DNA from: a virus
Reading direction: 5' to 3' (one strand)
Virus record (IMG/VR): IMGVR_UViG_3300011116_001110
Location: 1 to 29,357 of that record
Length of the DNA: 29,357 nucleotides
The notes beneath the pieces are model-generated. The model saw only the letters and a list, made by a program, of their open reading frames with translations, ran no database searches and had not been told where the DNA came from. Position numbers and translations under genes: made by a program. Of this stretch, positions 2,594 to 25,000 are shown piece after piece (position 1 is the stretch's first letter; each line of letters opens with the position of its first letter).

Positions 2594-2731
2594 ATGAAAG
2601 TGAAACAAAAATACAACTTTTACAAACAGCAGATGGAGCAAGAACTTTGCCGACAATCCAATAAATTAGCCATGCAAGGTTTAATTATTGTACTAAGTGT
2701 TACATTGATTGCTGTTTTTTTGTGCAAATAA
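2594..2731 (+). CDS. Small single-pass membrane protein, 45 aa
   Basis: ATG at 2594 follows AAGGAGCG at good spacing. The first 28 residues are polar and basic (MKVKQKYNFYKQQMEQEL onward); residues 29-43 form one hydrophobic helix (LIIVLSVTLIAVFLC) followed by Lys and stop. This is a tail-anchored layout with the N-terminus presumably in the cytoplasm. Small tail-anchored phage proteins include superinfection-exclusion and host-takeover factors, but nothing in the sequence selects one. It ends its operon; a large palindrome begins 28 bp later. Confidence 0.6.
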   Translation: MKVKQKYNFYKQQMEQELCRQSNKLAMQGLIIVLSVTLIAVFLCK

Positions 2732-2758
2732 AATAAAAAATTATCTTCGTGTAACTAA

Positions 2759-2815
2759 AATCCCATTTAGCTATTTAAAATCAGGTTTAAAAACCTCTCA
2801 TAGCTTCATGGGATT
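2759..2815. repeat. Nested three-segment palindrome
   Basis: Three complementary pairs are nested around one centre: AATCCCAT (2759-2766) with ATGGGATT (2808-2815), AGCTAT (2769-2774) with ATAGCT (2800-2805), and AGGTTT (2783-2788) with AAACCT (2791-2796). The bulges between them are 2 nt and 3-8 nt. It lacks a clean T-run, so a simple terminator for the operon ending at 2731 is possible but not typical. Confidence 0.75.
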
Positions 2816-2940
2816 GATTTTGGGACGTTTAAATTCAAAATGAATAGGAAGGCCTAGGGTGGAGAAAAATAATTGAAATTAGCTCGATTTGAGAATCAAC
2901 GCGCGTGTATAGTATTAAATATTTATAATATTAAATTATA

Positions 2941-2956
2941 TATAACTTCGGTTATA
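2941..2956. repeat. UUCG-tetraloop hairpin
   Basis: TATAAC, TTCG, GTTATA form a perfect 6-bp stem closed by C-G around a UUCG loop on the plus strand. C(UUCG)G is a known exceptionally stable RNA tetraloop. It stands in a nearly pure A/T stretch. Confidence 0.65.
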
Positions 2957-2991
2957 AAATCTAAGTATTATTTAAATTTATATTATTATGA

Positions 2992-3048
2992 TTTTTTCTT
3001 TTCTTTCTTTTTCTTTTGCTTCTTTTCTTTTTCTTTCTTTTCTTTTTT
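2992..3048. repeat. Perfect polypyrimidine mirror repeat (H-DNA motif)
   Basis: The plus strand is T/C only except for one G. Run lengths of T between single Cs are 6-4-3-5-4 in the left arm (2992-3017) and 4-5-3-4-6 in the right arm (3023-3048), an exact mirror image of 26 nt each around the centre GCTTC (3018-3022). Homopurine-homopyrimidine mirror repeats can form an intramolecular triplex (H-DNA). Confidence 0.9.
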
Positions 3049-3124
3049 GTAAAAAATTGAACAAATGAATGGTTGTTTTTGTTGGTAAATGTGAATTAAT
3101 AATTAAAGTTTAAGGAGAAAATAG

Positions 3125-3415
3125 ATGAGCAATTTAGAAAATGCCGAAGTATTATTTTTAGTTAGAGAGCAAATTTTAAAAGATTCTACATTCGTGGGAG
3201 AGCTTTTCCCAGTGGTATTGGGCTCTTTATACGAGAAAAGTAAATTAGACAGAGAGCAAGCAGCTGATTATGAGGCAGCATTAGCGATGATTTTTAGTGG
3301 AAACTCAGATTTGGCTAAAGAGAAAATAAAAAAATGGGTAAATAAACATTTTTGTGAAGGGTGGGAGGAGAGAGTTGAAAAACAAATTAAAATAGTAGTC
3401 AAAAGGAAAAAATAA
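3125..3415 (+). CDS. Unknown helical protein, 96 aa
   Basis: The ATG follows AAGGAG at 9 nt, just downstream of the mirror repeat. The product is helical with an acidic middle and a strongly basic C-terminal tail (VEKQIKIVVKRKK). No signal peptide, membrane segment or recognised motif. It starts a new run of small genes (3125-4038); the long structured region upstream should be its leader or control region. The next gene starts on the base after its stop codon. Confidence 0.7.
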   Translation: MSNLENAEVLFLVREQILKDSTFVGELFPVVLGSLYEKSKLDREQAADYEAALAMIFSGNSDLAKEKIKKWVNKHFCEGWEERVEKQIKIVVKRKK

Positions 3416-24962: not shown

Positions 24963-25000
24963 ACCCCTCGGGGTGCGCATTATTAAGAGGCGTGAGGGGT
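24963..25000 (-). terminator. Intrinsic terminator after the exported-protein gene
   Basis: On the minus strand ACCCCTC (25000-24994) pairs with GAGGGGT (24969-24963) around a 24-nt loop that holds an inner CGC/GCG pairing; the stem runs into a T-run (GGGGTTTTTTATTT). It separates the lysis/moron block from the capsid promoter. Confidence 0.75.

Follow-up and report, generated by a model that had tools for sequence, protein, structure and literature searches.

We analyzed a stretch of viral DNA (IMG/VR record IMGVR_UViG_3300011116_001110; hereafter the window, a linear virus record of 29,357 bases) that carries, at positions 2992-3048, a tract of thymines and cytosines (T/C) with two arms that are exact mirror images of each other. 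The tract is likely to be an element selected for the formation of an intramolecular pyrimidine.purine*pyrimidine (Y.R*Y) triplex, or H-DNA, probably in the H-y5 isomer, of a kind that phages and mobile elements carry in their control regions. The 5' arm, TTTTTTCTTTTCTTTCTTTTTCTTTT (2992-3017), is followed by the centre GCTTC (3018-3022) and by the 3' arm, TTTTCTTTTTCTTTCTTTTCTTTTTT (3023-3048), and a base-by-base comparison showed that the arms mirror each other exactly at 26/26 positions. The first-pass annotation had described a perfect 57-bp mirror repeat; the two exact 26-nt arms stand, but the centre is not symmetric, so that the full 57-mer is no perfect mirror, and G3018 is the sole purine of the 57-base tract. 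With its exact 26-nt arms and 5-nt loop, the tract combines the homopurine-homopyrimidine composition, mirror symmetry and short loop that define an H-DNA mirror repeat. It is single-copy in the whole record. Its parts and its 5' neighbor are as follows.

2992..3017, + strand: the 5' arm, T6 C T4 C T3 C T5 C T4, read from the sequence, which would be the Hoogsteen third strand in the proposed H-y5 isomer
3018..3022, + strand: the centre GCTTC, kept as G[C/G]TTC family-wide, from the sequence and its relatives
3023..3048, + strand: the 3' arm, an exact mirror of the 5' arm, from the sequence, which would retain Watson-Crick pairing
about 2966..2989, no strand: an A/T-only stretch immediately 5' of the tract, from the sequence; the A/T-rich flank of the viral members lies on the same side

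We asked whether such symmetry could arise by chance. In 200 order-3 Markov sequences of window length, T/C or A/G mirror arms (loop 3-9) reached 9 nt at most, and under the same loop limits the second-best mirror arm inside the window itself was 6 nt, compared with 26 nt here. Given the observed run lengths, only 60 of the 18,900 possible run orders are mirror-symmetric. These controls bear out the earlier claim that perfection over 26 nt is unlikely to be accidental. The tract could also be a lysine-rich coding stretch or an assembly artefact. Many of the seeded matches found elsewhere were indeed coding, with short arms, and a frame of about 26 codons that starts at an ATG (2988) runs across the tract, although we judged it not credible. 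However, the tract is intergenic in the window, and the class recurs in isolate genomes, among them that of Marinitoga lauensis, and in a virus genome amplified from a single cell. Taken together with the Markov control, these observations make chance, coding or artefact a highly improbable explanation.

Relatives were sought by scans seeded with T/C patterns, and the counts below describe the matches listed and are not frequencies. When IMG/VR was scanned with one arm, three contigs of another phage were recovered, bearing a different T/C tract mirrored around the same GCTTC. A looser seed (GCTTC with short T-runs of free length) gave many non-coding exact mirrors that differed in run lengths, together with coding matches with arms of 3-7. 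When the first two runs were fixed and the centre was left free, the long, non-periodic, non-coding mirrors had, almost without exception, the centre GCTTC or GGTTC or, in a class from marine viruses with 21-29-nt arms and 4-nt loops, ACCT, ACTC or GTCC. The cleanest set of matches came from the GGTTC-seeded scan, whereas the ACCT-seeded scan gave mostly lysine-rich coding matches and a handful of genuine marine-class mirrors. One scan of bacterial and archaeal genomes added further cases. In all, the matches listed from viral contigs and bacterial genomes contain about 100 non-redundant T/C mirror repeats with a G[C/G]TTC centre, and each of 10 phage contigs tested had exactly one seeded-pattern match.

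We next examined whether the two arms change together. In non-redundant matches, the right halves were permuted and the left and right runs were compared for equality. Among the matches listed from the viral GCTTC scan, run 1 was equal on both sides in 39/55 cases (expected 15.5) and run 2 in 20/22 (7.4); from the GGTTC scan, equality was found in 76/92 (27.9), 52/53 (18.2) and 15/16 (2.9) for runs 1, 2 and 3; and from the genome scan in 58/62 (31.4), 23/28 (10.7) and 8/8 (2.8). Non-mirror pairs in the same loci (L1 with R2, L2 with R1) were equal in about a fifth to a third, as expected by chance. Orthologous sites altered both arms jointly: the sites at loci L074 and L476, which have identical flanks and the centres GCTTC and GGTTC, have runs (4,5), whereas that at L230 has (5,5). 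In the marine group to which these sites belong, 17/17 sites were symmetric, the first run being 4 in fifteen and 5 in two, alike on both sides; similarly, the first runs of L217, L204 and L156 in the marine class are 4, 5 and 6, each equal on both sides. Across the family, therefore, run matching far above permutation and above non-mirror pairs, and orthologues that vary symmetrically, indicate that mirror symmetry is under selection. The first-pass annotation had proposed to look in related phages for symmetry kept while the sequence changed. Permutation and orthologues gave this result, but in phages unrelated to the window, for whose site no close relative was found.

These data also bear on the possibility that the tract is a rigid or curved A-tract, a protein-binding site or a low-complexity spacer in which mirror symmetry is incidental. 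The A/T-rich surroundings and the short T-runs separated by single Cs would suit such a role. However, protein sites favor inverted rather than mirror symmetry, and the match between left and right runs greatly exceeds permutation, an excess absent from non-mirror pairs; this explanation is strongly disfavored and very improbable. Because DNA copying is antiparallel, an aperiodic mirror cannot arise by simple duplication either. Exactly mirror symmetry is needed, on the other hand, when one purine strand is sandwiched by two T/C arms of one strand.

A triplex layout is seen in bacterial relatives. A same-strand purine complement follows the right arm in 11 of 107 relatives, all in bacterial contigs and mostly from Clostridia, and in these Clostridia-type elements the left arm equals the stem in sequence and length, which is the layout of a single-strand triplex. 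Read from the sequences, the 5' T/C arm would be the Hoogsteen strand, followed by a G linker and a [C/G]TTC that would pair with GAA[G/C]. Carried over to double-stranded DNA, this layout corresponds to the H-y5 isomer. In the proposed structure, the 3' arm of the T/C strand would keep its Watson-Crick pairing with the purine strand, while the 5' arm would unpair, fold back over the GCTTC turn and become the Hoogsteen strand in the major groove, leaving open the adjoining A/T-rich DNA and, in the 5' half, the purine strand. The register would be locked by isolated Cs between T-runs of unequal length, and the tight turn would be formed at the G[C/G]TTC centre. Within an intergenic control region of a phage or mobile element, the structure may act as an opening or pausing element, driven by supercoiling or by synthesis.

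The flanks of viral members are consistent with this polarity. The A/T-richer flank lies 5' of the T/C strand in 53 cases and 3' in 13 (66 non-tied cases, p about 1e-6), and in 38 versus 13 when the largest group is removed (51 cases, p about 6e-4); flanks with at least 90% A/T number 22 on the 5' side and 0 on the 3' side. In the window, the earlier claim that the tract sits between an A/T-only stretch (about 2966-2989) and a gene start (the ATG at 3125) proved accurate. In a survey of the mouse genome, the sequence to the left of the pyrimidine tract, the junction, was reactive in H-y5 DNA (PMC9171763), and the viral 5' A/T flank fits this reactivity. The same study reported that loop sequence steers isomer choice and that H-y5 forms at low superhelical density (PMC9171763).

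The H-y5 geometry is identical to that of a triplex driven by synthesis, in which the 3' arm of the T/C template would be copied and the single-stranded 5' arm would fold onto the new duplex and halt the polymerase, so that in phages the element would serve as a replication pause or terminus with polarity. Polymerase arrest at mirror Y/R tracts is established in vitro. The Clostridia form has exactly such a layout (5' Y arm, G, STTC stem), and the pattern is single-copy per phage contig. On the other hand, no link to skew or to a fixed genome position was seen, and the present data do not separate this explanation from supercoil-driven H-DNA; we regard it as unlikely, though as the most serious of the alternatives.

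An RNA element is a less probable alternative still: a U/C transcript in a 5' untranslated region or a small RNA would clamp a purine-rich strand or form a single-strand triplex. At many loci, a gene with the T/C strand as its sense strand begins 30-230 nt downstream, the marine class is preceded by a conserved hairpin-rich segment, and hairpin forms exist in Clostridia. However, a same-strand purine complement near the tract was found in 0 viral members of the main class; in the window, the purine complement is on the opposite strand only. The gene on the 3' side shows no strand preference (25 versus 20), and no Rfam family spans the mirror element. An intrinsic terminator, that is a G+C-rich hairpin followed by a T run, was not found within 2700-3200 of the window.

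Several results weigh against selected H-DNA as the explanation. The A/T polarity of bacterial members was not significant (p 0.38). The neighboring genes are diverse (terminase small subunit, repressors, replication genes, recombinases, exonucleases and RHH regulators) and point to no single role; moreover, many assignments rest on simple open reading frames (ORFs) from a crude caller. GC skew in 8 contigs gave no clear origin signal at the element and did not tie it to a fixed genome position. The relatives of the window's terminase are distant and lack the pattern. In about 800 bacterial chromosomes searched, the pattern was rare and its raw counts were near those of a reversed-pattern control; what is in excess is the symmetry rather than the raw count. 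Finally, the centres and lengths described here are those reached by scans seeded with T/C patterns. The role in replication, transcription control or packaging that the first-pass annotation had suggested received no direct support. What the sequences show directly is the mirror symmetry, the covariation of the arms, the constant centre and, in viral members, the polarity of the flank, whereas the folding of a triplex in cells, its isomer and its role are inferences.

The gene content of the record resembles that of a podovirus, with terminase, head-tail adaptor, major head protein, tail proteins, primase/helicase, Erf-like annealing protein and exonuclease. At the protein level, identity to its closest named relatives, Vibrio and other phages, is 30-43%. 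Megablast found no close relative of the site in phages, and neither the downstream gene nor the primase had close relatives in viral contigs. The mirror tract lies in a 393-bp intergenic region, between a small ORF that ends at 2731 and the ATG at 3125, which opens a 96-aa ORF 77 bases 3' of the tract. A hairpin-rich segment (2755-2825) shares this region.

2732..3124, no strand: the intergenic region around the element, from the sequence and ORFs
2757..2815, + strand: an imperfect long hairpin that shares the intergenic region with the element, from folding (z about -2.9 for 2755-2825)
3125..3415, + strand: a small ORF of 96 aa without a family match, the first gene past the element, from the ORF and a family search

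Elsewhere in the window, positions 24963-24999 on the minus strand match the Rfam abiF RNA (RF03085) with 47.5 bits (gathering score 37), with no obvious AbiF-type gene adjoining; this may be a defense-associated RNA that a phage carries as an orphan or decoy copy.

Among the relatives' loci, no conserved neighbor gene was found, and replication genes adjoin a few. In 35 cases versus 15 (p 0.007), the 5'-side gene is directed away from the element. In marine viruses (L204:1800-2100 on the minus strand, L217:4570-4840, L147:4680-4880 and relatives), a conserved, probably structured segment (ACTTGC...GCTTGG), in which a hairpin CTGAG/CTCAG is swapped for CTTCG/CGAAG, stands directly before a 21-29-nt mirror tract and has no Rfam match. 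Among the bacterial sites, the distance to the downstream gene is about 220 bp for L259 and L269, where the encoded proteins resemble IS110 transposases, and for L302, where it is a serine recombinase, all identified by eye. Because of this distance, the L259 and L269 tracts probably lie in the left non-coding end of IS110 that would carry the bridge RNA. Near-identical mirror tracts occur in Bacteroidota contigs (L259:1122, L269:95, L268, L273, L299 and others), with many copies at contig ends. In Marinitoga lauensis (L321:6830-6960), a purine mirror (GAACC) and a pyrimidine mirror (GCTTC) stand back to back with an A/T-only stretch between them; the left mirror may be coding. In Oscillospiraceae (L326, L284), a triplex-type hairpin lies between ORFs resembling pyrF and pyrK of pyrimidine biosynthesis, and Pseudoflavonifractor sp. 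60 has nine pattern matches.

We tentatively suggest, as a possibility somewhat short of even, that these elements represent a portable triplex switch common to phages and transposable elements: a G[C/G]TTC-centred H-y5 structure, present once per genome beside A/T-rich DNA and selected for structure as RNA stems are, that would open DNA or stop a polymerase directionally. Such a switch would then be an H-DNA element, outside eukaryotes, whose function has been naturally selected. The selected functions of H-DNA in living cells have long been debated on indirect evidence; here there is an evolutionary signature, in that the arms change in step, the turn is conserved and the A/T flank is polar, and about 100 natural sequences with paired variants could be used to test triplex formation and its effects on transcription and replication in simple bacterial systems.

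The element can be compared with three known systems. It resembles iteron-containing and A/T-rich control or origin regions in that, in one marine group, the mirror repeat is accompanied by repeated GCCATTCA motifs, A/T-only DNA and RHH genes; unlike them, the window contains just a single CCATTCAT-like 8-mer (3065-3072, reverse strand), and no recognised initiator adjoins the element. The intrastrand triplex motifs that Holder et al. (2015) catalogued in prokaryotes consist mainly of the G/C-rich TMECO, which is a purine-motif, proteobacterial element for which the authors saw no association with mobile elements (PMC4666352). The Clostridia relatives share the three-block single-strand triplex layout of these ITxF, TMECO and PIT motifs and belong to the same general kind, whereas the window element has no third block on its own strand and so falls outside the ITxF class. 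Prokaryotic mirror repeats were mostly normally represented in a survey (PMC4060949), and our full-text literature search, with subscription papers outside its scope, returned no account of mirror repeats centred on G[C/G]TTC and none of H-DNA elements in the genomes of phages. The closest likeness in structure is to the H-DNA mirror repeats of PMC9171763, with which the element shares T/C arms, a short centre and a predicted Y.R*Y triplex of the H-y5 form with a reactive 5' junction. Unlike those, the family of phages and mobile elements is no simple repeat, and it has a conserved G[C/G]TTC, aperiodic covarying runs and, in viruses, a 5' A/T flank.
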